Shown here piece after piece: positions 3,351-57,526 of a stretch of DNA of 64,000 nucleotides. Location: NCBI RefSeq assembly GCF_003574315.2, contig NZ_AP025739.1, positions 434,001 to 498,000 of the forward strand. The letters run 5' to 3'. The notes beneath the pieces are model-generated. The model worked only from the letters and a program-made list of their open reading frames with translations. It was not told where the DNA came from and ran no database searches. Both the position numbers and the translations under genes were made by a program. Source of the stretch: Capsulimonas corticalis. GTDB lineage: Bacteria > Armatimonadota > Armatimonadia > Armatimonadales > Capsulimonadaceae. The first letter of the stretch is position 1. Each line of letters starts with the position of its first letter.

Positions 3351-4375
3351 ACACCAAACGCAGACTATCGCTGCTGAGCGCCCCCCTCGCCGCACTGGCG
3401 CTCACCGGATGCAGCGCCGACATGCAGGCGAACAGCAAGATTCAGGACAATCTGGTCGAATGTGCGCGGCAGGCGCAGATCGGCAAGACCCAGGAAGCGC
3501 GCGTCTGGGCCGACCGCGCCATTCAGGTCGATCCCAAGAAGCAGGAGACCTATACCGGGGCGCTTGAAATCGACGCGAATACTCCGCAGCAGATGTTTTT
3601 CGGGAGCGCTCCCACCATCAGCATCGGCTTGATCTTCGACGTGGTGGGAGACGATCCCACGCTGATCTCCTATATGCGCGACGCCACGCGCAAGTTTCCG
3701 GGCGATATCGAAGCCTGGGAGCTGCTGGTGGAGGCGGAAGACCGATTGGGGCAGACCGCGCAGAAGACTCAAGACGCCAAGATGATGGCGGCGCAAGTTG
3801 ACCTGGCGATGCGAAAGCCGAAAGCGAAGATCGACGGGAAGCTGACGGCGCAGCTCGGACAGGCCTATTTCGATGCGGGCGATGAAGTGAACGGCGAGCT
3901 GAACTACCGCAAGGGGATCGCGACGTACTCCACCGATCCGATCCCGCAAAACGGCCTGGCTTATCACTTCGCGGTCACCAACAACAAGCCGCATCTGAAG
4001 GAAGCGCTCGACCTGGCGAACCAGGCGCTGAAGCTGACGAAAGTTCAGGAACAGACATCGGGCCATCCGGAAGAAGTGACGAACGAGAAACTCGGGGCCA
4101 TCCAGGATACGATCGGCTGGGTGCAGTATCGGCAGGGAAATTATCAGGCCGCGCTGATGAGCCTGATGGACGCCGTGGCCGGCGCGCCGGATGTGGCGGA
4201 AATCCGCTACCACCTGGCGATGGTGTATCTGGCGATGGGCAACGCGTTCGCCGCGCGCACCGAGCTGCGCCACGCGCTCCTGCTCCATCCCGATTACGCG
4301 GACGCGCAGACGCAGTCGAATCTGCTGCAAAACGTCCCGCCGCCCAAGCCCGATCCCGAAGACGATGCGGATTAA
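3347..4375 (+). CDS. TPR-repeat lipoprotein
   Basis: The 342-residue protein begins with a signal peptide ending in LTGC (Cys22). It is helical, with TPR-like units, clearest at about 260-335 (VQYRQGNYQAALMSLMDAV; HLAMVYLAMGNAFAARTEL). It overlaps the ABC ATPase by 4 nt, so the two are probably made together. It may act as an envelope assembly factor working with that ATPase; this is inference. The C-terminal tail is rich in Pro and Asp. Confidence 0.75.
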   Translation: MNTKRRLSLLSAPLAALALTGCSADMQANSKIQDNLVECARQAQIGKTQEARVWADRAIQVDPKKQETYTGALEIDANTPQQMFFGSAPTISIGLIFDVVGDDPTLISYMRDATRKFPGDIEAWELLVEAEDRLGQTAQKTQDAKMMAAQVDLAMRKPKAKIDGKLTAQLGQAYFDAGDEVNGELNYRKGIATYSTDPIPQNGLAYHFAVTNNKPHLKEALDLANQALKLTKVQEQTSGHPEEVTNEKLGAIQDTIGWVQYRQGNYQAALMSLMDAVAGAPDVAEIRYHLAMVYLAMGNAFAARTELRHALLLHPDYADAQTQSNLLQNVPPPKPDPEDDAD

Positions 4376-4610
4376 TTGCTTGTCAGAAATATTTCATGGA
4401 TGAGTCGCGGTTTCATGGCCGGTCGCTAAAGTTGGAGTATAATATAATCGCAATTAAGCGTGCGGACATTAATTCTATGCCCGGGTGGTTTCTATCGGGT
4501 TGTCCCAATTGACCAGCCATTGAGCGGCGTGATTGCGTTACCGTGAAAAATAACTCATGATGGGTAACCAACGGCTCGGCCGAAGCACGCTGCACAAGGA
4601 ACTGTGTCGG

Positions 4611-5825
4611 GTGAGAAGAATATCTCGGACAAGTCTTATCTGGGCCAAATCGCTCCTACCGCTTTTGCTGATGGGCGCTGTCGCGCACGCCGCGTTCGGC
4701 GCCGAATGCGCCGCCTACCCGCCGAGCCCCAGCGGCAAGATCCTCGTGACGCATCCCAATATTGTCTGGCGTGTGGTTCCCAAAGGCGAAGCGCACATCA
4801 CCAAGGTCACCCTTTCCCTCAACGATAAGGAAGTCTCCGCGCAGTTCGACGCGGCTAAGTCCGCCGTCACGGCGCAGCCGGACTCGGACCTCACCCCCGG
4901 ATCGTATACGGTGAAGTGCACGCTTTACTTCAGCGACGACTGCACCATCGACCAGGAATGGTCGTTCGTCGTGGCGGAAGGCGCGGTGGCGTCGATGCCG
5001 GCCGCGACCTCCGATCAAAAGGACGCGCTCGCGGTCGTGAACGACATCCGCCAGTTCATCTCTTTGCCGGCCTTTGCCCTCAATGCAAGCCTCTGCGGCG
5101 CCGCGATGGACCACACGAAGTATCTCGACACGCACAAGGAGTTCGGCCATACCGAGACGCCAACGCTGGCGGGGTTCACGGGAAAAACGCCGGGGGAACG
5201 CGCTTCCGCGCATGGCTATCCTTACGTCAACTACGAAAACGTCAGCAGCGGCATTGTCTCGTTCGCGGACTCGATTTTGGATCTCTTCGACGCCCCCTAC
5301 CACCGCGCGCCGTTCCTGCAGCCCGGCCCGGGCGACTTCGGAGCGGCGACCATCTCGGACAAGACGACGCTGGAGTTCGGCGTCGCCGGCAAAAAGGGAA
5401 CCGTCTTTTACCCCTTCGACGGCGAGACCGGCGTGCCGATCCAGTGGTCCGCTCCGGAATCTCCCGATCCGCTGCGCTTGTGGGGTGCCACCAAGCCGGT
5501 CGGCTATATCATCACGATGTTCTATTTCAGTCCGGACGGCGAAAAGATCAGCGTGACCTCGGCCTCGCTGCAAACGGCGTCCGGCGTCCCCGTCCCCTGC
5601 TACGTCAACACGCCCGCCAACGACAACGCGCTCAGCAACGGCCTGTTCGTCATCCCTCAGCACCCGCTCAAGCCTCAGACGACCTATGTCGTGACCGTCA
5701 AGGCCGCCACCGTCAGCGGCGCGGATCTTTCCCAGAAGTGGAAGTTCACCACCCGCTCCGGGTCCGACCTTGAACTCGCGCGCGGCACCCTTCGCCCCAA
5801 GGGCGAACTGGCGACGAGCAAGTAG
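4611..5825 (+). CDS. Secreted CAP/SCP-domain protein with flanking Ig-like domains
   Basis: A signal peptide (LLPLLLMGAVAHAAFGA) is followed by an N-terminal Ig-like domain. A CAP (SCP/TAPS) domain covers about residues 125-260, with AAMDHTKYLDTHKEFGHTE carrying the His residues of the family and GYPYVNYENVSSG as the second signature. A C-terminal Big_5-like domain follows (QTTYVVTVKAATVSG). It is extracellular; bacterial CAP proteins are poorly understood. GTG 4611 has AAGGA about 10 nt upstream. The alternative ATG 4557 would add 18 residues and has no clear ribosome site. Confidence 0.75.
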   Translation: MRRISRTSLIWAKSLLPLLLMGAVAHAAFGAECAAYPPSPSGKILVTHPNIVWRVVPKGEAHITKVTLSLNDKEVSAQFDAAKSAVTAQPDSDLTPGSYTVKCTLYFSDDCTIDQEWSFVVAEGAVASMPAATSDQKDALAVVNDIRQFISLPAFALNASLCGAAMDHTKYLDTHKEFGHTETPTLAGFTGKTPGERASAHGYPYVNYENVSSGIVSFADSILDLFDAPYHRAPFLQPGPGDFGAATISDKTTLEFGVAGKKGTVFYPFDGETGVPIQWSAPESPDPLRLWGATKPVGYIITMFYFSPDGEKISVTSASLQTASGVPVPCYVNTPANDNALSNGLFVIPQHPLKPQTTYVVTVKAATVSGADLSQKWKFTTRSGSDLELARGTLRPKGELATSK

Positions 5826-6183: not shown

Positions 6184-6591
6184 CTAATCCATTTCCCTGG
6201 CCGGCAGCGCCTGGCCGCCGGCATGAATCTCTGGCTGGCGGCGGATGTACTCGGCGAGGTCCGCCGTTTCGCTTTTGGAGACGGTGAAGGCGGCGTAGTT
6301 GGCGGCCCAGCGGAACCGGGTTTCCGGAGGCAAGGCATGGCTGACATGCTGCGCGGCGGCGGCTTTGAGATGCGCGGCGAGATGATCGACGGGAAGAGTG
6401 CTGGGGATGCGCGCCAGCAGGTGCAGGTGATTGTCCGTCCCGCCCACGGCGAGGGCTTCGACGCTCATTTGGGCCGCGATTTCCTGAATAAATTCGTACA
6501 GCCGGGATTGGTCCAGGCCGGCAAGCGCCGGTTCGCCGCCCCAGGCGCTCCAGATGAGATGGACATAGAGCTCCGTCTTCTTTGTTCGCAT
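6184..6591 (-). CDS. REP-associated/IS200-like Y1 transposase (RAYT-like)
   Basis: This 135-residue protein belongs to the HUH Y1 transposase family. TELYVHLIWSAW starts the fold, HLHLLARIP is the HUH motif (HLH) and the Tyr in AEYIRRQPEIH is the expected nucleophile. It is close in design to the gene at 14978. Unlike that gene, no REP-like palindromes are visible on either side. It may be a domesticated or solitary RAYT. Confidence 0.85.
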   Translation of the reverse strand: MRTKKTELYVHLIWSAWGGEPALAGLDQSRLYEFIQEIAAQMSVEALAVGGTDNHLHLLARIPSTLPVDHLAAHLKAAAAQHVSHALPPETRFRWAANYAAFTVSKSETADLAEYIRRQPEIHAGGQALPAREMD

Positions 6592-8641: not shown

Positions 8642-9820
8642 CTACTGGCCCATGCTGTAAATCGTTCGGATATCGACGGGGGCGAGGGCGGTGTCGTAGA
8701 GCTGGACTTCGTCGATGACGCCGGTGGCGAATTCGCTGAAGCCGCCGGCGGCTTTGGCGCGGCCGAAGACGGTGGGGCCGTCGGCGCGCTGTTGTGGGGG
8801 GACGTGCGAGACGCTTTCCTGCGCGCCGTTCACGAAGAGGGTGATGGTCTTGTTCGCGGCGCTGTAGACGCCGGCGAGGTGGAACCACCGGCCGATGGCG
8901 GCGGACGTGACGGACTCGGCGTGTTCGGGGTCCATGGAAAAGGCGAAATGGCGCGTGTCCTGGCGCATCTGGAGACAGAAGGCGCTTTGCTCGGGGCCGT
9001 CGAGGCTGACGAACGATTGGAAGCTGTTCAGATTGGCGAGTTTGACCCAGCAGGCGACGGTGAAGCTCTTGGTGTTATCGACAACGGCTCCGGGGATTTC
9101 GACGCCGCCGGGATGCAGGAAGGTGATGGACGACATCCCCATTTTGCGGTCGCCGGACCATGCCGCCCCCGCCTGGAGTTTGCCGCTGTGCCCGTGACCC
9201 GATTGATCGCTCACGACAAGGCTTGAGTCGTCATCGCAGGGCCAGTAGCCCACCAGATGACGATTGAGATCCGACGCCGCGCCTGCGGCGCCGTCCGGGC
9301 CGCCCGAATTTTTCTCGGATCCCGCCGGGGGTGTTCCCCCGCCCTTGATGGCGAGCGAATCGATGACTGCCCAGCCGCCGACGGGCGTGATCTGGATCAC
9401 ATGGTTGCCGGCCGGCAGTCCCGTGATGCTGAAGATTTTGAAATGGGCGTCGGTCGTGGCCGCGCTCAGGTCGATCGTCGCCTGATCCTTGTCGTCGATC
9501 GAGACGGTGACCTTGCCCACGCGATGCGAGCGCCGGTCCGCGACCACCGTCATCGCGCACATGCCATAGACGTCCACGCCCGAGCCCTGGAACGTGTACA
9601 TGGCGTACGTCCCCGGCCCGCCCGCGTGCGCGGCGCCGTCCGGCAGCGCGGCGTTCTCGTAAGGGTCCATGCCGTACCACATCCAGCCGGCGGCGTCGTT
9701 CTTGACCACGGTCTCCGGAGGGTCGGCGGAGGGGGGCTCCGCCGGAGCGCGAAGGGCGCCGAAGCCGGCGCATGTCAGCGCCAGGGCCGCCCAAAATACC
9801 CTGCTGCGTTTCGAAATCAT
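8642..9820 (-). CDS. Secreted LamG-domain protein, paralogue 1 of 4
   Basis: A 392-residue protein: signal peptide (residues 1-27), a conserved beta-sandwich at about 38-150 (NDAAGWMWYGMDPYENAAL; YTFQGSGVDVYGM; GGWAVIDSLAI) and a LamG/concanavalin-like domain at about 188-390 (LVGYWPCDDDSSLVVSDQSG; SFTVACWVKL; IDEVQLYDTAL). Both domains are of the carbohydrate-binding style and no catalytic residues are evident. It is the most divergent of the four tandem paralogues: CDDD replaces CDEG and its leader differs. Extracellular glycan binding is inferred. Confidence 0.8.
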   Translation of the reverse strand: MISKRSRVFWAALALTCAGFGALRAPAEPPSADPPETVVKNDAAGWMWYGMDPYENAALPDGAAHAGGPGTYAMYTFQGSGVDVYGMCAMTVVADRRSHRVGKVTVSIDDKDQATIDLSAATTDAHFKIFSITGLPAGNHVIQITPVGGWAVIDSLAIKGGGTPPAGSEKNSGGPDGAAGAASDLNRHLVGYWPCDDDSSLVVSDQSGHGHSGKLQAGAAWSGDRKMGMSSITFLHPGGVEIPGAVVDNTKSFTVACWVKLANLNSFQSFVSLDGPEQSAFCLQMRQDTRHFAFSMDPEHAESVTSAAIGRWFHLAGVYSAANKTITLFVNGAQESVSHVPPQQRADGPTVFGRAKAAGGFSEFATGVIDEVQLYDTALAPVDIRTIYSMGQ

Positions 9821-9862
9821 TACTCTCTCCCAGGCCGAAGCCCATGTTTACGCGGCAATATT

Positions 9863-9892
9863 AAGGCGGCTCGCTTCAGCGCGAACCGCCTT
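9863..9892 (-). other. Hairpin in the leader of LamG paralogue 1
   Basis: A 12-bp arm pair (AAGGCGGCTCGC / GCGAACCGCCTT, one mismatch) around a 6-nt loop lies just downstream of the -10 box. On the minus strand it is followed by TTAATATT, so it could be an attenuator, or a terminator for read-through from paralogue 2. The other three LamG leaders lack it. Confidence 0.6.
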
Positions 9893-9921
9893 ATTTTACC
9901 ATTGAACCGCGAAAATCACAA
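9893..9921 (-). promoter_or_regulatory. Promoter of LamG paralogue 1
   Basis: On the minus strand TTGTGA and TAAAAT are 17 nt apart, with AATGG directly before the -10. The same arrangement precedes all four LamG genes. Confidence 0.7.
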
Positions 9922-9970
9922 ATGGAGAGCGCCGGCGCGCGTCCAGTCGGGGGTGAATAATGAGGGGTGT

Positions 9971-11158
9971 TTAGCCGCCAGCGCTATAGATGGCGCTGAT
10001 GTCGGGAGGAAGCAGGGCGGCGTCGTACATGCGGACTTCGTCGATGCTGCCGGCGACGAAATCAGTGTAGTTGCCCAGGAATTTGGCGCGGCCGATGACG
10101 GTGGTCCCGTTGGCGCGGGTCGGCGCAGGGATCTTGGTCGTGCCTTCCAGGTTCCCGTTCACGAAGATCGCCAGCGTCTTCGTGGGAGCGTCGTAGACAC
10201 CCGCGATATGATACCACTGGCCCACAACCAGAGGGGTTGTGGCGTCGGCGTGATACGGGTGCATGGTGAACCCAAAGCGGTGCGTGTCGTCGCGGGTTTG
10301 CAGGAAGAAGCCGCTCTGGTCCGCGCCGTCCATGCTGACGAAGGTTTGAAACCCGCCGTTCAGGCTGGTGAGGCTATTCAGCTTGACCCAGGCCATCACC
10401 GTGAAGCTCTTAGAGGTGTCGATGACCGGCTCGGGGATCTCGACCCCGCCCGGCTGCGGGAACGAAACCGCGCCCTTCCCCATCTTGCCTTCCTTCGACC
10501 AGGCGGCGCCGGCCTGGAACGTCCCGTTGTGTCCGTGGCCGGACTTGTCCGCGAGGGTCTCGCCCGCGCCTTCGTCGCACGGCCAGTAGCCCACCAGATG
10601 TCCTTTTCCCACCAGGTTCGCCGCCGCCGATTCGGCGGCGCCTCCGCCGCCGTCGGAGCCCGCCGTGACGGCGAGGGAATCGATCACCGCCCAGCCGCCG
10701 ACCGGGCTGACTTGCAGCACATGGTTGCCGCCGGACAGTCCCTTGATGCTGAAGATTTTGTAATGGAAGTCGGTATCGGTGGAGGAGACATCGATGGTTC
10801 CCTGCACCTGATCGTCGATGGAGACTTTGACCTTGCCCGTCCGGTGCGTGCGCTTATCCGCCACAACGGTCATGGAGCGCATGCCGTAGACATCGACGCC
10901 CGAACCCTGGAACGTATACATGGCGTACGTTCCCGGCCCGCCCGCGTGCGCGGCGCCGTCCGGCAGCCCGGGATTCTCGTACGGGTCCATGCCGTACCAC
11001 ATCCACCCCGCCGCATCGTTCTTGACGATCGTCTGGGCTTCCTCGGAGGCGGCCGCATCCCCGCTTGGGTCGGTCACGGCGTACGCGGCGGTCGCGCCGG
11101 CGAGGCTCAGCAGCGCCGTCACGGCCGCGCACGTCGCCTTCACCCACTGGCTGATCAT
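9971..11158 (-). CDS. Secreted LamG-domain protein, paralogue 2 of 4
   Basis: A 395-residue protein with signal peptide, the N-terminal beta-sandwich shared by the array (NDAAGWMWYGMDPYENPGL) and a C-terminal LamG domain (VGYWPCDEGAGETLADKSG; SFTVMAWVKLN; IDEVRMYDAAL). The linker is Gly/Ser/Ala-rich. CAGGAGAG precedes ATGATC. It has its own promoter. Extracellular glycan or cell-surface binding is inferred from the LamG fold. Confidence 0.8.
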   Translation of the reverse strand: MISQWVKATCAAVTALLSLAGATAAYAVTDPSGDAAASEEAQTIVKNDAAGWMWYGMDPYENPGLPDGAAHAGGPGTYAMYTFQGSGVDVYGMRSMTVVADKRTHRTGKVKVSIDDQVQGTIDVSSTDTDFHYKIFSIKGLSGGNHVLQVSPVGGWAVIDSLAVTAGSDGGGGAAESAAANLVGKGHLVGYWPCDEGAGETLADKSGHGHNGTFQAGAAWSKEGKMGKGAVSFPQPGGVEIPEPVIDTSKSFTVMAWVKLNSLTSLNGGFQTFVSMDGADQSGFFLQTRDDTHRFGFTMHPYHADATTPLVVGQWYHIAGVYDAPTKTLAIFVNGNLEGTTKIPAPTRANGTTVIGRAKFLGNYTDFVAGSIDEVRMYDAALLPPDISAIYSAGG

Positions 11159-11165
11159 GGTTCTC

Positions 11166-11196
11166 TCCTGAATAACAATGATGTCTTTTCGTACAA
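11166..11196 (-). promoter_or_regulatory. Conserved 5' leader block of LamG paralogue 2
   Basis: About 30 nt just before the ribosome site match the leaders of paralogues 3 (12509-12541) and 4 (13893-13926). The minus-strand pattern is TGTAYGAAAAGA, then a variable ATT-rich stretch, then TTCAGGAG. Conservation outside coding sequence suggests a shared regulator or RNA element, or recent duplication. Confidence 0.5.
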
Positions 11197-11231
11197 ATTA
11201 TACGAGAGCCGCCAAAGCGCGTTCACATCAA

Positions 11232-11260
11232 ATATTACCATTTAATCACCAATGGATCAA
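11232..11260 (-). promoter_or_regulatory. Promoter of LamG paralogue 2
   Basis: Minus-strand TTGATC and TAATAT are 17 nt apart, with AATGG before the -10. The leader is about 67 nt. Confidence 0.7.
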
Positions 11261-11271
11261 GCGGTAACCTG

Positions 11272-11310
11272 AAAAAGCAGGCAATCGGCCAAAGCGCGCC
11301 CGATTGCCTG
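11272..11310 (-). terminator. Terminator after LamG paralogue 3
   Basis: On the minus strand CAGGCAATCGG pairs with CCGATTGCCTG over 11 bp and is followed by CTTTTTC. It separates paralogue 3 from the promoter of paralogue 2, so each is its own transcription unit. Confidence 0.85.
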
Positions 11311-11320
11311 TGCGTACGCG

Positions 11321-12499
11321 TCACTTGTTGGCGCTATAAAGCGAGTCGATCTCGACAGGCGTCAGGGCGACATCGTAGATCCGGATGTCGTCGATGGCGC
11401 CGTAGACAAAGTCCGTGAAGTTGCCCCCGTACTTCGCGCGTCCGAAGGCGGTATTGCCGGTGGCCCGCGCGGCGGCCGGAGCGCGCTCCGTGGCTTCCAG
11501 CTGGCCGTTCACATAGACCGACAGCGTCTGCCGGGTCGCGCTGTAGACGCCCGCCAGGTGATACCACTGTCCGGGCTGCGGCGAGACCGGCGCGAACGCG
11601 TGGACGGGGTCCAGGGCGAACGTAAATCGATTCCCGTCGGCGTGGACCTGGAGGAAGAAGCCGCTCTTGTCGTCGCCGTCGATGCTGACAAATGTCTCGT
11701 AGCCGCTCAGCTTGTCCAGCTTGACCCAGGCGGCGACGGTGTAGCTCTTGGTCGTATCGATGACCGGCCCGGAGATCTCGACGCCGCCGGGATTGGGGAA
11801 CGAGAGCGCGCTTCGTCCGACCTTGGCGTCGGTCGTCCACGCCGCGCCGGCCTGGAAGTACCCGGTCTGCCCGCGTCCCGATTTGTCGGCCACGGTCGTC
11901 CCGGAGCCTTCATCGCAGGGCCAATAGCCCACCAGGTGCGACTTCCCCACTTCCGCCGCCGCCGAGGCGTCGTGCGAGCTGGTTTCCCCCGGCGCGCTGC
12001 TGATCACCAGCGAATCCACTACCGCCCATCCGCCGACCGGATTGACCTGTAAGACATGGTTCCCGGCGGCCAGACCGGTGATGCTAAAGATCTTGGCGTG
12101 GTAGTCGATGTTGGTGTCGCCCAGATCGATCGTGCCCTGCTCTTTGTCGTCGATAGAGATCGTGACCTTGCCCGTCCGGTGCGTGCGCTTATCCGCAACC
12201 ACCGTCATCGCCCGCATGCCATAGACATCGACGCCCGAGCCCTGGAACGTGTACATGGCGTACGTCCCCGGCCCGCCCGCGTGCGCGGCGCCGTCCGGCA
12301 GCGCAGCGTTCTCATAGGGGATCATGCCGTACCACATCCAGCCCGCCGCATCGTTCTTGACGACAGTTCCCGTCGCCGCCGACCCGGCGCCGCCATCCAC
12401 GTTCGGATCGGTCACCGCCTGGGCGGCTCCCAGCGTCGTCCCCGCCAGCGCGCACACGGCGGCCACGCGTATCGCCGTCCAAAAACTCGGCTTGATCAT
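11321..12499 (-). CDS. Secreted LamG-domain protein, paralogue 3 of 4
   Basis: A 392-residue protein from ATGATC at 12499, the start matching its paralogues with CAGGAGAC upstream; an ATG 24 nt earlier has no such site. Signal peptide, N-terminal sandwich (NDAAGWMWYGMIPYENAAL) and LamG domain (VGYWPCDEGSGTTVADKSG; SYTVAAWVKLD; IDDIRIYDVAL). DNA identity to paralogue 4 is high over the N-terminal half, pointing to recent duplication or gene conversion. Confidence 0.8.
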   Translation of the reverse strand: MIKPSFWTAIRVAAVCALAGTTLGAAQAVTDPNVDGGAGSAATGTVVKNDAAGWMWYGMIPYENAALPDGAAHAGGPGTYAMYTFQGSGVDVYGMRAMTVVADKRTHRTGKVTISIDDKEQGTIDLGDTNIDYHAKIFSITGLAAGNHVLQVNPVGGWAVVDSLVISSAPGETSSHDASAAAEVGKSHLVGYWPCDEGSGTTVADKSGRGQTGYFQAGAAWTTDAKVGRSALSFPNPGGVEISGPVIDTTKSYTVAAWVKLDKLSGYETFVSIDGDDKSGFFLQVHADGNRFTFALDPVHAFAPVSPQPGQWYHLAGVYSATRQTLSVYVNGQLEATERAPAAARATGNTAFGRAKYGGNFTDFVYGAIDDIRIYDVALTPVEIDSLYSANK

Positions 12500-12575
12500 G
12501 GCTTGTCTCCTGAATGGCAACAATATCTTTTCATACAGATAAACACACGAGGAATGAATGCGTATTCAACACCTC

Positions 12576-12604
12576 ATTTTACCATTAATTCGCCTAGCAG
12601 ACAA
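12576..12604 (-). promoter_or_regulatory. Promoter of LamG paralogue 3
   Basis: Minus-strand TTGTCT and TAAAAT are 17 nt apart. The -35 and its surroundings (GCTTGTCTGCTAGG) are identical to those of paralogue 4. Confidence 0.75.
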
Positions 12605-12713
12605 GCGGGGAATGAATAATTGTCAGTACATTGCATTAACGATTTATAGAAAATCTCGATCGCCTTGGAAACCCGGCAAGAAACTCACGGGACGTTCATC
12701 GGCGCCCCTGGGA

Positions 12714-13883
12714 TTAACGCCCGGCGAGATAAAGATCCATGACGTCGTCGGCCGAGAGGTTCGTATCGTAAAGCCGCACTTCGTCGATGCTCCCGGTCAC
12801 GAAATCCGTATAATTCCCCCGATACTTCGCCCGCCCGATCACGGTATGCCCATAGGCGCGGTAGGCGGCGGGCACGGGAGACGTGGTCTGGAATTCGCCG
12901 TTCACATAGAGCGTGGAGGCGCGCGCCTTGGAGTCGTAAACTCCGACAAGGTAATACCAGACTCCGGTTTGCGCGGCCGCAATCGAGTACGTCCGCCCTG
13001 GATCCAGGGACAGGGAAAAGCGGTTGCTGTCCGTTGTGTACTGCAAGAAAAACCCGCTCTTTTCTCCGCCATCCACACTGACGAACGTTTGATATTTCGT
13101 GAGATCGGTGAGCTTCACCCAGGCGGCGACGGTATAGCTTGCCGAGGTGTCTACAATCGGCTCGTCGATCTCAACGCCGCCCGGTTTGGGGAAGGAGAGC
13201 GCGCTCGCTCCCCCTTTGGCGTCGGAGGTCCACGCCGCGCCCGCCATCAGATAACCGTTATGCCCATGGCCGGAGAGATCCTTCACGGCCGCGCCCGCGC
13301 CCTCGTCGCAGGGCCAGTACCCCACGAGGCGCTTCTTCAGCGCTTCGCCGCCGATCGACATCCCTTTCGCCCCGCCTGCCGCCGAGTCGCCTGTGATTTC
13401 CAGCGAGTCCACCACGGCCCAGCCGCCGACCGGCGTGATCTGAATCACATGGTTGCCCGCCGCCAGCCCCTTAACGCTGAAGATCTTGGCGTGATAATCG
13501 ATGTTGGTGTCGCCGACATCGATGGTCGCCTGCTCCTGATCGTCAATCGAAATCTTGACCTTGCCCACCCGGTGCGTCCGTTTGTCCGCCACCACCGTCA
13601 TCGCCCGCATGCCATAGACATCGACGCCCGAGCCCTGGAACGTGTACATGGCGTATGTCCCCGGACCGCCCGCGTGCGCGGCGCCGTCCGGCAGCGCGGC
13701 GTTCTCATAGGGGATCATGCCGTACCACATCCAGCCCGCCGCATCATTCTTGACAACCGTCCCAGGCGCAGCGGCGCCATCCGCGTTAGGGTCGTCAATC
13801 GCATGGGCCGCGCTCAAAGTCGCCATCAGCAGCGCCGCGACGACAGTCATGCGCATCGCCACCCAAAACCTCGGCTCGATCAT
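12714..13883 (-). CDS. Secreted LamG-domain protein, paralogue 4 of 4
   Basis: A 389-residue protein from ATGATC at 13883 with CAGGAGTG upstream. Signal peptide, sandwich domain (NDAAGWMWYGMIPYENAAL; GGWAVVDSLEI) and LamG domain (VGYWPCDEGAGAAVKDLSG; SYTVAAWVKLTDL; IDEVRLYDTNL). It is first in the array by direction of transcription. Its own promoter lies upstream. No clear terminator is visible before paralogue 3. Confidence 0.8.
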   Translation of the reverse strand: MIEPRFWVAMRMTVVAALLMATLSAAHAIDDPNADGAAAPGTVVKNDAAGWMWYGMIPYENAALPDGAAHAGGPGTYAMYTFQGSGVDVYGMRAMTVVADKRTHRVGKVKISIDDQEQATIDVGDTNIDYHAKIFSVKGLAAGNHVIQITPVGGWAVVDSLEITGDSAAGGAKGMSIGGEALKKRLVGYWPCDEGAGAAVKDLSGHGHNGYLMAGAAWTSDAKGGASALSFPKPGGVEIDEPIVDTSASYTVAAWVKLTDLTKYQTFVSVDGGEKSGFFLQYTTDSNRFSLSLDPGRTYSIAAAQTGVWYYLVGVYDSKARASTLYVNGEFQTTSPVPAAYRAYGHTVIGRAKYRGNYTDFVTGSIDEVRLYDTNLSADDVMDLYLAGR

Positions 13884-13961
13884 GGCGTCACTCCTGAACA
13901 ACAATAATATCTTTTCATACAGATAACAAGATTAATGGTCCTGCGCCTGCATATCCTCCAC

Positions 13962-13990: not shown

Positions 13991-14160
13991 GCGGGTTTGT
14001 TGCAGGTGTCAATAAATATACTACTTCAAGCAATATTTTCAATTTCCTGGCAAAATGACGTGGCAGGGTTGTGGGGGAGATCCAGGTGGAGTTACACGAA
14101 AGAGATTTCTTGCAGCCGGAGGACTTCCGGCTACCGGGGCTGATGGCGTGGATGTAAGAC

Positions 14161-14240
14161 GTATGCGTGGCGCGTCGTTAGGCAGGCGAATGAATTCGCG
14201 CCTACAAGTACGGTCACCCGCCTTCGCGGGTTCAGAAAGG
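14161..14240 (+). repeat. REP-like element, left copy
   Basis: It contains the palindrome GCGAATGAATTCGC, a conserved TACGGTCACCCGC block and a foot hairpin ACCCGC-CTTC-GCGGGT. It matches the copy at 15466 in inverted orientation. The preceding 50 nt hold a small separate hairpin (GCCGGA-GGAC-TTCCGGC at about 14115). Confidence 0.75.
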
Positions 14241-14247
14241 TAACGCG

Positions 14248-14496
14248 ATGTCGGACACAATTCCATTCCACATTAACGTCGATTTACATGAGAAGGTTAA
14301 GGCAGAAGCCTCCCGCCAAAACGTCAGCGTCGATCGGTTGATCATTAACGCCGTTGAGTTGTATTTGGAGACGGAAAAAGAGCGTGTGTGGCGCGTGGGA
14401 TTTGAGGCGATGGGGCGCGATCCGGATACTAACAACGTGGATTATTTGTTGTCGGCCGGGCGGGAAGTTGTGTTTCACGATATCAGAAGCGAGTAG
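14248..14496 (+). CDS. Ribbon-helix-helix protein (antitoxin-like)
   Basis: An 82-residue protein with a short N-terminal RHH pattern: PFHINVDLHEKVKAEASRQN, then VSVDRLIINAVELYLETEK. Such proteins bind DNA as dimers and often are antitoxins or self-regulators. GAAAGGTAACGCG precedes the ATG, directly after the left REP. No toxin of a known family sits beside it; the convergent gene at 14509 is the only candidate partner. Confidence 0.65.
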   Translation: MSDTIPFHINVDLHEKVKAEASRQNVSVDRLIINAVELYLETEKERVWRVGFEAMGRDPDTNNVDYLLSAGREVVFHDIRSE

Positions 14497-14508
14497 TGGT
14501 GGAAACCG

Positions 14509-14970
14509 TTACTCATAATCCTTCATCCATTTCTGATATTCAGGCTTGAAACAATCAGCCCAGATACGCCGCATCATTGGCGTTACGTTAAAAACGTGGT
14601 CAGGATCGGTATCTGTTTCTTCTACATCAACTCTGCACCAGTATCGAATTGTGTGGAGATGAATTAAAAAATTCTGACGCAATAGACGCTCGATCCGCAC
14701 TTCGAATGCTTCTCTATCTTTGATTTTCAAATCGGGTTCACACAGGTAATCGTCAAACGAAGAGACGATCAATTCCATCATACCGTGCTTATGGTTGATA
14801 TCAAAATCGCCATTTTCGTAGAGATCAAAGAATTCGGGCAGGCGATCTGCGTCAGCACAAACAATTTCCCAGTCTTGAGACGCAGCACGATCTGGCGGCA
14901 GATTCAGCATAATCTTCAAACTCAAGGCGGTCTCCGCATTTACCCAATGCGGCGGCTCTGTCTCATTCAT
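14509..14970 (-). CDS. Hypothetical protein inside the REP cassette
   Basis: A 153-residue acidic, soluble protein with no signal peptide or recognised motif. It lies 7 nt after the RAYT gene on the same strand, so the two are likely co-transcribed. Its GC content is lower than that of its neighbours. It converges with the RHH gene. It may be a passenger or immunity-like gene; the function is unknown. Confidence 0.55.
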   Translation of the reverse strand: MNETEPPHWVNAETALSLKIMLNLPPDRAASQDWEIVCADADRLPEFFDLYENGDFDINHKHGMMELIVSSFDDYLCEPDLKIKDREAFEVRIERLLRQNFLIHLHTIRYWCRVDVEETDTDPDHVFNVTPMMRRIWADCFKPEYQKWMKDYE

Positions 14971-14977
14971 GCTAAAC

Positions 14978-15385
14978 CTATACTAACTCTAAATCGGGAT
15001 CAAGCGTTCGCTCACGATGATGCGCTTCTTGATTCTGGATATACGCCCGAATATACCCGATATCTTGCCGCCGCAGCGTGAACGCTCCATAAGCGCCCTG
15101 CCACTTGAAAATATTGCCATTTTGCGAAGCGATATTCAATGCATAAGAACTGACGGCCTTCATTTGCTTTACCATCCACGCGACAGTCACCGTTGCTGGA
15201 ATCCGCACCAGAACATGCACATGATCCGCCACCCCACCCACCTCAAGAACCTCGCCTCCCTGCTTCTCGCATTCATCTTTCAGAAGTCGATAAACATTCG
15301 GCCGAATATCGGCCGTGATAAACGGCAGACGATCCCATGTCGCCCAAACCAAATGAACAAATAGTTCCGTATGTGTTGCTCTCAT
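14978..15385 (-). CDS. REP-associated tyrosine transposase (RAYT)
   Basis: A 135-residue HUH Y1 transposase. THTELFVHLVWATWDRLPF starts the fold, HVHVLVRIP is the HUH motif and the Tyr in RAYIQNQEAHH is the catalytic candidate. The start ATG 15385 is chosen by alignment with the gene at 6184; the frame is open 14 codons further. It lies between inverted REP-like repeats, as expected for RAYTs, which nick and transpose REP hairpins as single strands. Confidence 0.88.
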   Translation of the reverse strand: MRATHTELFVHLVWATWDRLPFITADIRPNVYRLLKDECEKQGGEVLEVGGVADHVHVLVRIPATVTVAWMVKQMKAVSSYALNIASQNGNIFKWQGAYGAFTLRRQDIGYIRAYIQNQEAHHRERTLDPDLELV

Positions 15386-15465
15386 AGTCTTGATACTCTT
15401 AGACCAATGCACAATCCGGAAACCCAAATATTAAGTTTTTCGAATTGAAGATACCCCTTCGATTT

Positions 15466-15542
15466 CCTCTGAACCCGCGCAGGCGGGTGACCGTACTTGT
15501 AGGCGCGAATGAATTCGCCGGCCTAACGACGTGCGTTGCATA
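15466..15542 (-). repeat. REP-like element, right copy
   Basis: Inverted copy of 14161-14240: foot hairpin ACCCGC-GCAG-GCGGGT, then GACCGTACTTGTAGGCGCG, the GCGAAT...ATTCGC palindrome and GCCTAACGACG. Only a few positions differ between the copies. Confidence 0.75.
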
Positions 15543-15592
15543 CACCTCACTATGATTTGCGTTCCCGTGTCATTCGCAAACAGAGAACGCAA

Positions 15593-15659: not shown

Positions 15660-18600
15660 CTACGAACACCCCAAACTCGTCCCACACTGCATGCACTTGT
15701 AGCAGGCGCCGCTGCGGATCGTGATCGCGCCGCATTCGGGGCACGGAGGCGCGTCGCTTTGGCTGCGGAAGGTTTCGCGCTCGTGGTCGGCGATGGTCGC
15801 GGGACCGTCGGAGACGGGGAGTTTGATGACGCCGTTGGTTCCGTTACCGTTCGAGCCATTGCCGTTGCCGTTTTTGGCGGGGGCGGGCGCGGCGACTTCG
15901 GGTTCGGGTTCCTGGTCCACGAGGAGGCCGACGTTGTGACGCTCGTTTTTGGCGAGGAACTTCAAAGCCAGCCAGCGGAAGATGTAGTCCATGACGGACT
16001 TCGCCATCGGGATGTCTTTGTTGTTCGTGAAGCCGGACGGCTCGAAGCGGCTGTGGATGAACTTGTCCACCAGCGTTGAGAGCGGGACGCCGTACTGCAA
16101 GGACAGGGAGATCGCGGTGGCGAAGCTGTCCATCAGGCCGGAGATCGAGGAGCCTTCTTTCGCCATGCGGATGAAGATCTCGCCGGGATCGCCGGTGTCC
16201 GGATACAGGCCCACCGTGATGTAGCCCTCGTGGCCGCCGATCGAGAACTTGTGCGTGACCGAGGAGCGCTCGTCGGGCAGGCGGCGGCGCATCGCGTAGG
16301 TCTTGTTCTCGGGGGCGACGGTCAGCGTGGCGACCGATGTCTTGTCGGCGGCCGGCTTCTCCTTACTCGTGTTGAGCGGCTGCGTGCGCTTGGAGCCGTC
16401 GCGGTAGATCGCGACCGCCTTCAGGCCCAGCTTCCAGCTCTCGATGTAGGTCTCGGCGATCTCTTCCGGCGTGGCGTCGGTGGGGACGTTTACCGTCTTG
16501 CTGATCGCGCCGCTGATGAACGGCTGCGCGGCGGCCATCATCTTGATGTGGCCCTTGTAGTGGATCGACCGGGTGCCGTTGCTCGCGCGGAAGGCGCAGT
16601 CGAAGATCGGCAGGTGCTCGGTTTTTAATGCGGGCGCGCCTTCAATCGTGTCGTGCTCGTCGATAAAGTCGATGATACTCTTCATCTGATCGTCGGTGTA
16701 GCCCAGGCGGGTGAGCGCCTCGGGGACGGTCTGGTTGACGATCTTCATCATGCCGCCGCCGACCAGGCTCTTGTACTTGACGATCGCAATGTCCGGCTCG
16801 ATGCCGGTGGTGTCGCAGTCCATCAGGAAGCCGATGGTGCCCGTCGGCGCCAGAACCGTCGCCTGCGCGTTGCGGTAGCCGAACTGCTCGCCGACTTCCA
16901 GCGCCTCGTCCCAGCTGCGCTGCGCGGCGGCGGCGAGGGTCTCCGGGATGTAACGCGGGTTGATGTCCGCCACGGCGGCGCGGTGCTTGCGGATGACGCG
17001 CAGCATCGGATCGCGGTTCTCGGCGTATCCGGAGAACGGGCCGCCGCAGTCGCGGGCGATCTTGGCGGACTGCTCGTAAGCGCGGCCGGTCATGATCGCG
17101 GTGACGGCGCCGGCGTAAGCGCGGCCGGCGTCGCTATCGTAGGGCAGGCCCGACGCCATCAGCAGCGCGCCAAGGTTGGCGTAGCCAAGGCCCAGCGTGC
17201 GGTAGACGTGCGAGCGCTCCTCAATCTTCTCCGTCGGATAGGCCGCGAAGCCGACCACGATCTCCTGCGCGGTGATCATGATGCGGACGGCGTGCTCGAA
17301 CGATTCGGTGTCGAACGCGCCCGTGCCCTCCTGGCGGAACTTCATAAGATTGAGCGATGACAGATTACACGCCGTGGAGTTCAGGAACATATACTCCGAG
17401 CACGGGTTGCTCGCATAGATGCGATCCGTGTTCGAGCAGGTGTGCCAGTCGTTGATCGTGGTGTCGTACTGCATGCCGGGGTCGCCGCAGACCCAGGTGC
17501 CTTCGGCGATGCCGCGCATCAGCTCGCGCGCCTTCACCGTGGCGATGGGCTTGCCGGTCAGGCGGGCCTTGGTTTCCCAGGGGCCATCAGCCTCGACGGC
17601 CTGCATGAACTCATCCGAAACGCGAACGCTGTGGTTGGCGTTCTGGAACGGGACGGTGTCGTAGGCGCCGTTGACCACATTGAACGCGCCGGAGTACCCG
17701 GCGTCGATCAGCGCGTGCGCCTTCAGCTCGGCGTCCTTTTTGCAGTCGATGAAGTCTTCGATATCCGGGTGATCGACATCCAGAACGCGCATACACGCCG
17801 CGCGGCGGGTGCTGCCGCCGCTCTTGATCGAGCCGGCGCTGGCGTCCAGGCCCTTCATGAACGAAATCGGGCCGCTGGAGCGTCCGCCCGCCTGCAAGGG
17901 CTCCTTGGAGGAGCGCAGGGTGCTGAGGTTGACGCCGGAGCCGCTGCCATCCTTAAAGAGCATGCCTTCGGTCTTGTACAGATCGAGGATGCTCTCCATC
18001 GTATCGTCGACTTCGTTGATGTAGCACGCCGAGACCGCCTGGCGTCGGCCGGGCCAGCCGAGGTTGAACCAGACGGGGCTATTGAACGCGGCATACTGGT
18101 GCAACAAGATATAGCGCAGTTCATCGTGGAACGCGGCGGCGTCTTCGTCGGTCGCGAAGTACTTGCCGGCCCGGCCCCATTCGATGATCTTATCGGCGAC
18201 GCGGGTGATCAGCTGCTTGACGCTGTATTCGCGCTCCAGCGTCCCGACATGTCCCCGGAAATACTTGGAAACGACGACATTGGTCGCCAACTGCGACCAG
18301 TCCTTCGGGATCTCCACGCCATCCTGTTCGAAGACGACCTTGCCGTCGCTGCCGACGATGCTCGCCTTGCGCAGCTCCCATTCGGTCGTCTTCCAGACAT
18401 CCTGTCCCGGCTGCGTATAGCGGCGCGAGACGGTCAATCCGGAGCCGGGCGCTTTCTGAACGGACTGAGGGGCCGTTTCCTTTTTTTCCGCGGTAGCGGG
18501 CATAGCGTTCTCCTTCGTATTCTTCTCTCTTGTCTTGGTCATATCAATTTCGACCGGAGAAATCTCCAGTTTGATCGGCGAAATCTCCGGGGCGGCCTCG

Positions 18601-19046
18601 GCCTCCAGCGCGATGGCGACCGGCGGGGCGGGCGTCGCAGGCATCTGGACACCGGCGCCGCGCGCCGCGATGTCCAGCAGCGCGGGCGGAGGATCGCCGA
18701 GCAGGCGCGCGATGATGGTGTCCGCGAACGGCGCGCGGTCGTCATCCAGTCCAAAGGGATGGGCATGCCCTTCGCCGCGCCCAATCTCCTCCTGCGTCTC
18801 CGCCGCCAGGGCAGGCGCGGGTGCGGCGATGGGTTCGACGGCAGGGAACAGGGCCGCTTCGGCGGCGGCGATGGCCGCCTTCTCCGCGTTGGACTTGCGG
18901 CCGCGCTTCTTCGGCGCGGCGGCCTCGGGAGCGGCGACGCTTTCCACGACGGGCGGCGGCGCGGCGGCCGGGGGCGCCTCATCCGCGATCAAGTCCAGCG
19001 TCTCTTCTTTGGGTTGGCGGGATTTCGTACTGGCGATGCGCGGCAT
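15660..19046 (-). CDS. nrdJ: Adenosylcobalamin-dependent (class II) ribonucleotide reductase
   Basis: It reduces ribonucleotides to deoxyribonucleotides using a B12-derived thiyl radical, without oxygen. Visible features are ACYINEVDDTMESI, NPCSEYMFLNSTACNLSS (active-site Asn/Cys/Glu and a redox Cys), LAPTGTIGFLMDCDTTG and a C-terminal CPECG...CYKCMQCG cysteine tail that probably re-reduces the active site. From ATG 19046 (AAGGAG upstream) the protein is 1128 residues. The first 181 are Ala/Pro-rich with a basic AT-hook-like KKRGRKS and are not part of the known fold. A second start at 18503 would give the usual-size 947-residue enzyme. It follows nrdR by 52 nt. Confidence 0.93.
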   Translation of the reverse strand: MPRIASTKSRQPKEETLDLIADEAPPAAAPPPVVESVAAPEAAAPKKRGRKSNAEKAAIAAAEAALFPAVEPIAAPAPALAAETQEEIGRGEGHAHPFGLDDDRAPFADTIIARLLGDPPPALLDIAARGAGVQMPATPAPPVAIALEAEAAPEISPIKLEISPVEIDMTKTREKNTKENAMPATAEKKETAPQSVQKAPGSGLTVSRRYTQPGQDVWKTTEWELRKASIVGSDGKVVFEQDGVEIPKDWSQLATNVVVSKYFRGHVGTLEREYSVKQLITRVADKIIEWGRAGKYFATDEDAAAFHDELRYILLHQYAAFNSPVWFNLGWPGRRQAVSACYINEVDDTMESILDLYKTEGMLFKDGSGSGVNLSTLRSSKEPLQAGGRSSGPISFMKGLDASAGSIKSGGSTRRAACMRVLDVDHPDIEDFIDCKKDAELKAHALIDAGYSGAFNVVNGAYDTVPFQNANHSVRVSDEFMQAVEADGPWETKARLTGKPIATVKARELMRGIAEGTWVCGDPGMQYDTTINDWHTCSNTDRIYASNPCSEYMFLNSTACNLSSLNLMKFRQEGTGAFDTESFEHAVRIMITAQEIVVGFAAYPTEKIEERSHVYRTLGLGYANLGALLMASGLPYDSDAGRAYAGAVTAIMTGRAYEQSAKIARDCGGPFSGYAENRDPMLRVIRKHRAAVADINPRYIPETLAAAAQRSWDEALEVGEQFGYRNAQATVLAPTGTIGFLMDCDTTGIEPDIAIVKYKSLVGGGMMKIVNQTVPEALTRLGYTDDQMKSIIDFIDEHDTIEGAPALKTEHLPIFDCAFRASNGTRSIHYKGHIKMMAAAQPFISGAISKTVNVPTDATPEEIAETYIESWKLGLKAVAIYRDGSKRTQPLNTSKEKPAADKTSVATLTVAPENKTYAMRRRLPDERSSVTHKFSIGGHEGYITVGLYPDTGDPGEIFIRMAKEGSSISGLMDSFATAISLSLQYGVPLSTLVDKFIHSRFEPSGFTNNKDIPMAKSVMDYIFRWLALKFLAKNERHNVGLLVDQEPEPEVAAPAPAKNGNGNGSNGNGTNGVIKLPVSDGPATIADHERETFRSQSDAPPCPECGAITIRSGACYKCMQCGTSLGCS
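18501..18515 (-). promoter_or_regulatory. Internal ribosome binding site and alternative nrdJ start
   Basis: Minus-strand GAAGGAG lies 6 nt before an in-frame ATG (18503, MPATAEKKE), inside the N-terminal extension of nrdJ. It is at least as strong as the site at 19046 and sits where the extension ends and the conserved enzyme begins. Confidence 0.6.
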
Positions 19047-19098
19047 GAGTTGCTCCTTGCTCAAAGAATCTTTCGGCGGATCGGACTGCTAGGCCGGG

Positions 19099-27092: not shown

Positions 27093-27225
27093 CCTGGCGA
27101 ATGAATTCGCGGCTAAAAGTACGGTCACCCGCCTCCGCGGATTCAGACTTTGTGCCGTGGGCTCCGAAGTCCGCGAAGGCGGACGGCTATACTTTTAGGC
27201 GCGAATTCATTCGCCGGCCTTCTGA
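27093..27225. repeat. Paired inverted REP-like units without a transposase
   Basis: Two units face each other. Left: GGCGAATGAATTCGC, AGTACGGTCACCCGC. Right, inverted: GTCCGCGAAGGCGGAC, ACTTTTAGGCGCGAATTCATTCGCC. They match the REPs around the RAYT at 14978. In the right unit the foot stem is GTCCGC/GCGGAC instead of ACCCGC/GCGGGT, so two base pairs changed on both sides. The element fills much of the gap 27000-27292, in which no gene is visible. Confidence 0.75.
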
Positions 27226-57302: not shown

Positions 57303-57361
57303 CGAGATCCGACTCGCCTCTCCCTATTCTGGGCTCATTGCGGTAGTTTTTCCCGACCCCA

Positions 57362-57510
57362 CAATAAATTACGGGGCTGGGGGTTGCTTCGCAACTAGTG
57401 CCCAAAGGGCGCCCACCGTGCCGGACGGAAGATAATTTCGCTAGCATTTCTTATTTTTCCGTCCGGCACGGACGGTCGGCGCGAAGCGCCCCCAGCCGGG
57501 TAATTCATTG
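57362..57510. repeat. MITE-like nested inverted repeat
   Basis: Outer arms (CAATAAATTACGGGGCTGGG against CCCAGCCGGGTAATTCATTG) enclose an inner pair (CCGTGCCGGACGGAA / TTCCGTCCGGCACGG) around an AT-rich loop. It lies between convergent genes and contains no credible gene. GCTTCGC blocks next to the arms recur in the other hairpin elements. Confidence 0.65.
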
Positions 57511-57526
57511 CCCGGTACGCGAAACC

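Follow-up and report, generated by a model that had tools for sequence, protein, structure and literature searches.

A probable resident REPtron of a subclass 1.2 Y1 transposase, with an orphan antitoxin gene between its arms, in Capsulimonas corticalis

In Capsulimonas corticalis, two inverted REP-like repeats enclose a Y1 transposase gene together with a gene for a ribbon-helix-helix (RHH) protein and a third gene, here called HYP. Do these genes form one mobile unit, or does a transposase with its own repeats sit among genes that merely ended up beside it? We addressed this in a window of 64 kb, positions 434001-498000 of the single 7.65 Mb contig that was searched as the genome. The likely answer, in our judgement, is a resident REPtron of TnpA_Y1 subclass 1.2 whose arm family is dispersed as REPINs, with the RHH and HYP genes as passengers placed there by local rearrangement. 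The features are as follows, in positions of the window:

14065..14154, plus strand: last 30 codons of a 262-aa gene (73% identity, E 1.2e-7, to the congener gene)
14154..14236, plus strand: left arm, REP-like unit of L type; outer hairpin with GTAG at its inner foot, inner hairpin ACCCGC-CTTC-GCGGGT
14248..14496, plus strand: RHH gene, 82 aa, orphan MazE-type antitoxin by homology (59% identical to the antitoxin of the congener mazEF pair)
14509..14970, minus strand: HYP, 153 aa, beginning 7 nt past the transposase stop; predicted all-helical, mean pLDDT 73
14978..15427, minus strand: Y1 transposase with the TnpA subclass 1.2 signature DHVH, WQ, YIQNQEAHH; likelier start at the ATG at 15385
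15468..15550, minus strand: right arm, REP-like unit of L type, inverted to the left arm
15660..19064, minus strand: ribonucleotide reductase-like gene, called nrdJ; right-hand anchor common with the congener (93%)
27096..27220, no strand assigned: REPIN-like doublet of the same arm family

The arms are 83 nt each, inverted, 87% complementary and separated by 1231 nt, which bears out the inverted repeats of about 75 bp with few differences reported in the first-pass annotation. In each, a linker separates the inner hairpin from an outer one, GCGAA-TGAA-TTCGC, which is lengthened by GGC/GCC pairs, and the outer parts of the left and right arm also match each other. Folded as single-stranded DNA, the left and right arm share their two main hairpins, with z of −1.8 and −2.5 and with 9/200 and 2/200 shuffles folding equally well. 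An Rfam search of the locus gave no match. Copy number rules out chance as the source of the arms, since 68 places in the genome match one arm. The left arm, which lies beside the mazE-type RHH gene, may have been inserted independently rather than belonging to the transposase as its partner.

All three genes that the first-pass annotation placed between the arms are present, but the transposase is not the classical (class 2) RAYT that it named. The protein scores 17.1 bits against the NCBIfam profile for REP-associated tyrosine transposases, under the cut-off of 80, and its YIQNQEAHH motif, which contains Y129, lacks the Y---NP of class 2 RAYTs; subclass 1.2 has Y---Q--HH (Quentin et al., 2018; PMC6006769). 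It agrees with the published description of subclass 1.2 in DH[IV]H, WQ, Y---Q--HH and a length of about 148 aa (PMC6006769), an assignment based on this motif definition and on a tree of relatives gathered here. The same paper describes subclass 1.2 as the nearest kin of true IS200, found mainly in Cyanobacteria and Bacteroidetes, with neither IS ends nor REPs (REP ‘no’), and leaves its role open (PMC6006769).

The arm family itself is dispersed in an orderly manner. Of the 68 matching places, 58 pair up into 27 head-to-head doublets, and close arm pairs in any other orientation are absent among the paired places in the genome. Doublets in which both arms could be read combine an L arm, whose inner stem is ACCCGC, with an R arm, whose inner stem is mostly GTCCGC. 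The transposase locus carries two L arms, and the doublets are therefore not simple deletion copies of it; GTAG stands at the foot of both locus arms and TTAG in most doublets. Among 20 R arms, one pair of the inner stem is G-C in 9, A-T in 7 and C-G in 4, and two-sided compensatory changes of this kind number 17 in all in the arm hairpin, as opposed to 4.4 in shuffles, which indicates that the hairpin itself is conserved.

Comparison with the congener gives a sense of time. At the place of doublet L021 (genome position 1329165), the congener has matching flanks of 1260 and 1368 bp at 80% identity but no doublet; gain or loss of doublets has therefore taken place since the two species diverged. 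A second transposase of the genome (locus L098) occupies the same place among the same neighbors as the congener's L081, so these transposase genes stay put for long times. Two transposases of the genome other than the one between the arms have arm families of their own, with 19 and 18 doublets; these two families are mutually similar and have some places in common. The second arm family, which belongs to L098, is represented in the window by a doublet at 57357-57511. Some doublets (L020 and L027, around 1430-1720) are set within longer palindromes, with outer flanks such as CTAGTA.CGTGTTAAGTTGATTT on both sides, and resemble the GTAG-15 dimers of a cyanobacterium (PMC3733652). The window also contains, at 8642-13904 on the minus strand, a tandem array of four paralogues, each of about 395 aa, whose non-coding spacers resemble one another (e.g. 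repeats at 12500 and 13884).

A single-copy transposase with flanking inverted REPs that recur as genomic doublets is the arrangement by which REPIN-RAYT systems are recognized, and the locus shows it; in this sense it is of REP/REPIN type. It would consist of one HUH/Y1 transposase bounded by its own inverted pair of two-hairpin arms, and the roughly 27 head-to-head doublets would be REPINs, most likely mobilized by the transposase as single-stranded DNA. Cleavage would take place near the hairpins, through Tyr129 and the HUH site; both cleavage and mobility are inferred.

How, then, did the RHH gene come to lie between the arms? Pfam assigns it only weakly (HicB, E 0.011, below the cut-off), and its assignment is supported by the fact that a homologue adjoins a MazF. 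Its two nearest homologues, one from the congener (59% identity) and one from a second genome of this family (48%), lie directly upstream of PemK/MazF genes. With both loci in window orientation, the gene order in the congener begins with the 262-aa gene, another transposase and a REP unit, continues with RHH and MazF, and then has a second REP unit and two small genes before nrdJ. In the window, the 30-codon tail of the 262-aa gene is followed by one arm, then by RHH, HYP and the transposase, and finally by the other arm and nrdJ. This synteny comparison is with one congener whose genome is incomplete (69%). The 262-aa gene is intact there, beside mazEF and the other transposase. DNA likeness to the congener RHH gene reaches the VVF codons, located where the congener's mazF starts, and then ends. 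No remnant of mazF was found in the window, and no MazF is encoded anywhere in the genome. A pilin-like gene near both the window and the congener's closest transposase locus (L078) is of a common kind and was not taken as synteny.

Judged from this gene order, the RHH gene is a resident antitoxin left over from a mazEF pair and is not part of a mobile unit. The locus would thus occupy the stretch from nrdJ to the 262-aa gene, which in the congener is taken up by mazEF, by other REP units and by a different transposase of this class. Through rearrangement, mazF and all but the tail of the 262-aa gene would have been lost here, so that an antitoxin without its toxin was left between the arms.

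The HYP gene may be co-transcribed with the transposase given the 7 nt gap, and its homologues all lie away from transposases. One paralogue (L100, 3786-5500; at about 6933.8 kb in the same genome) stands in a row of uncharacterized small genes beside a DNA methyltransferase-like gene. Comparison with Pfam, NCBIfam, PADLOC, viral contigs and PDB folds did not match it to any defence protein, toxin or known fold.

A second transposase locus has a passenger of a different kind. Past the 3′ arm of L098, at 4358-5244 (about 2822857-2823743 in the genome), lie a doublet and a REP-bounded gene for an acetyltransferase (PF13302, E 3.5e-18), both of which are missing at the orthologous locus of the congener. 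This raises the alternative of passenger capture, in which REP arms beyond the native pair serve as alternative ends and longer segments with their passengers are moved or recombined. Subclass 1.2 transposases would then move REP-caught genes, mazE and HYP here and the acetyltransferase there, as compound elements via outlying REP pairs. The match between the outer parts of both locus arms also fits such a scheme. However, synteny accounts for the RHH passenger without any movement, neither passenger segment was seen at a second site, and ordinary recombination or insertion between repeats would yield the same picture. Different passengers at two loci are better explained by local rearrangement among REPs than by dedicated cargo, with capture by the transposase as an unlikely alternative.

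The first-pass annotation proposed a selfish and self-maintaining cassette whose RHH protein could control the transposase or serve as an antitoxin. Spelled out as a rival reading, this control would be repression, HYP would be the toxin to such an antitoxin, and the whole arm-to-arm segment would move together. In its favor are the position of all three genes between matched inverted arms, the 7 nt spacing of HYP from the transposase, and the constraint on the RHH coding sequence (pN 0.19, pS 0.88), although the period over which this constraint was measured covers the time before toxin loss. Against it, the RHH gene belongs to the resident mazEF locus and its homologues adjoin MazF and not HYP; HYP is not associated with transposases elsewhere; and a toxin adjoining the antitoxin, as a toxin-antitoxin module requires, is not what is seen, with no MazF in the window or genome and no toxin family match for HYP. 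The three-gene cassette, which was to be looked for in related genomes, did not reappear: an enlarged arm-to-arm interval comparable to that of the locus (745 bp on one side) occurs in 0/114 relatives, the nearest being L214, with arms 167-537 bp away. The first-pass annotation had itself named homologous cassettes lacking the RHH and HYP genes as evidence against this proposal, and such loci are the majority: when no end-of-contig filter is applied, arms surround the transposase alone at 84/114, consistent with its remark that transposases of this sort normally sit between REPs without cargo. The selfish cassette is largely refuted and, in our view, highly improbable.

As arms of a relative we counted inverted repeats at least 25 bp long and at least 80% identical, one on each side of the gene and no more than 350 bp from it. 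They were found at 81/111 testable loci (a set that holds a few duplicate records, e.g. L114 and L184), as compared with 10/2626 control windows taken from these loci. The genome search supplied 33 of the loci, all from Armatimonadota, and 25 of them had arms; a wider scan supplied 78, of which 56 had arms, by phylum 30/35 in Cyanobacteria, 8/16 in Chloroflexota, 6/8 in Verrucomicrobiota, 4/6 in Acidobacteriota and 4/6 in Planctomycetota. On a lenient reading, 100/111 loci carry the Y---Q--HH signature. The same test detected no arms at E. coli rayT and none around true IS200 genes (0/7). At 68 of the 84 armed loci the 5′ arm folds into at least two hairpins. A GTAG foot appears in the arms of 16/84 relatives by a loose scan, little above other words, and is unsupported as a general rule. 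The arm of a Nostoc locus has 55 matches in its own genome, several as doublets, and that of a Calothrix locus has 4. In one distant Armatimonadota genome (L142 and L087, G020 contig C41), an arm-flanked subclass 1.2 transposase is likewise found directly downstream of nrdJ.

Subclass 1.2 transposases accordingly appear to be REP transposases in several phyla. A literature search that included the two key papers, apart from their supplements, returned no paper tying subclass 1.2 to REPs. Cyanobacterial GTAG repeats have long been known (PMC3733652), and part of the link may already be recorded in those supplements under other names.

That the locus is instead an ordinary IS200 insertion sequence lying between repeats by happenstance is very unlikely: with 63.4 bits the protein passes the cut-off of 55 for the NCBIfam IS200-like profile, and among solved structures IS200-type transposases come nearest, but seven IS200 proteins form their own clade (100/100) apart from that of the transposase (100/99), which unites it with Armatimonadota, Cyanobacteria, Chloroflexota and Gemmatimonadota; true IS200 proteins have WS or WA and no HH after the Y motif; their genes are without flanking arms; and the transposases of this genome are divergent single copies, unlike an IS. 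The tree, motifs and copy number led us to reject an ordinary IS200, and the protein shows neither the WT/WS and YxENQ-type motifs of subclass 1.1 nor membership of the IS200 clade. The branch of E. coli RayT was too long for placement. A second Y1 transposase-like gene of the window (6184-6591, minus strand; Pfam E 5.8e-17) has the altered motifs NHLH and WA and no flanking arms; in the tree, the transposase found at the nrdJ locus of the congener falls together with it (91/86).

The arms beside most members in several phyla, together with the large genome-wide families in the two lineages where these were seen, give subclass 1.2 a likely substrate. REP-type domestication would then extend to class 1 in addition to class 2, and Nostoc and other cyanobacterial hosts become possible test systems for this subclass.

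The relationship to known systems can be drawn accordingly. The link to mazEF modules is the RHH gene, whose homologues in two relatives are antitoxin genes immediately preceding a PemK/MazF toxin gene, although here the toxin gene is absent from window and genome. IS200 (subclass 1.1) belongs to the same Pfam family and is the sister group in the published classification, but differs in its W and Y motifs, its separate clade and its lack of paired inverted arms (0/7). TIRYT/TIRtrons (Di Nocera 2013, PMC3733652) likewise combine a Y1 transposase with long terminal inverted repeats on either side, and some of these repeats form dispersed families; most described TIRYTs are of subclass 2.1 with an HTH tail (PMC6006769), whereas our protein lacks both the class 2 motif and this tail. 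The closest resemblance in layout is to the REPIN-RAYT systems or REPtrons of class 2 TnpA_REP (Nunvar 2010, PMC2817692; Bertels and Rainey 2011, PMC3116915), with a single-copy Y1 transposase between inverted hairpin repeats and a dispersed family of inverted doublets for every transposase. Unlike these, the protein is of class 1 (Y---Q--HH, not Y---NP) and the arms have two hairpins, with a GTAG foot at the locus but no such rule among relatives. In protein terms the match is TnpA_Y1 subclass 1.2 (Quentin et al., 2018; PMC6006769): DHVH, WQ and Y---Q--HH in a protein of 149 aa, with few copies that have low identity to one another. That paper is the only detailed classification of these transposases found in our literature search and lists the subclass without REPs or IS ends, an observation on its members and not a criterion of membership. 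What seems new, on the sequences compared here, is that a transposase class published as REP-free has arms beside most of its relatives, and in more phyla than those first described.
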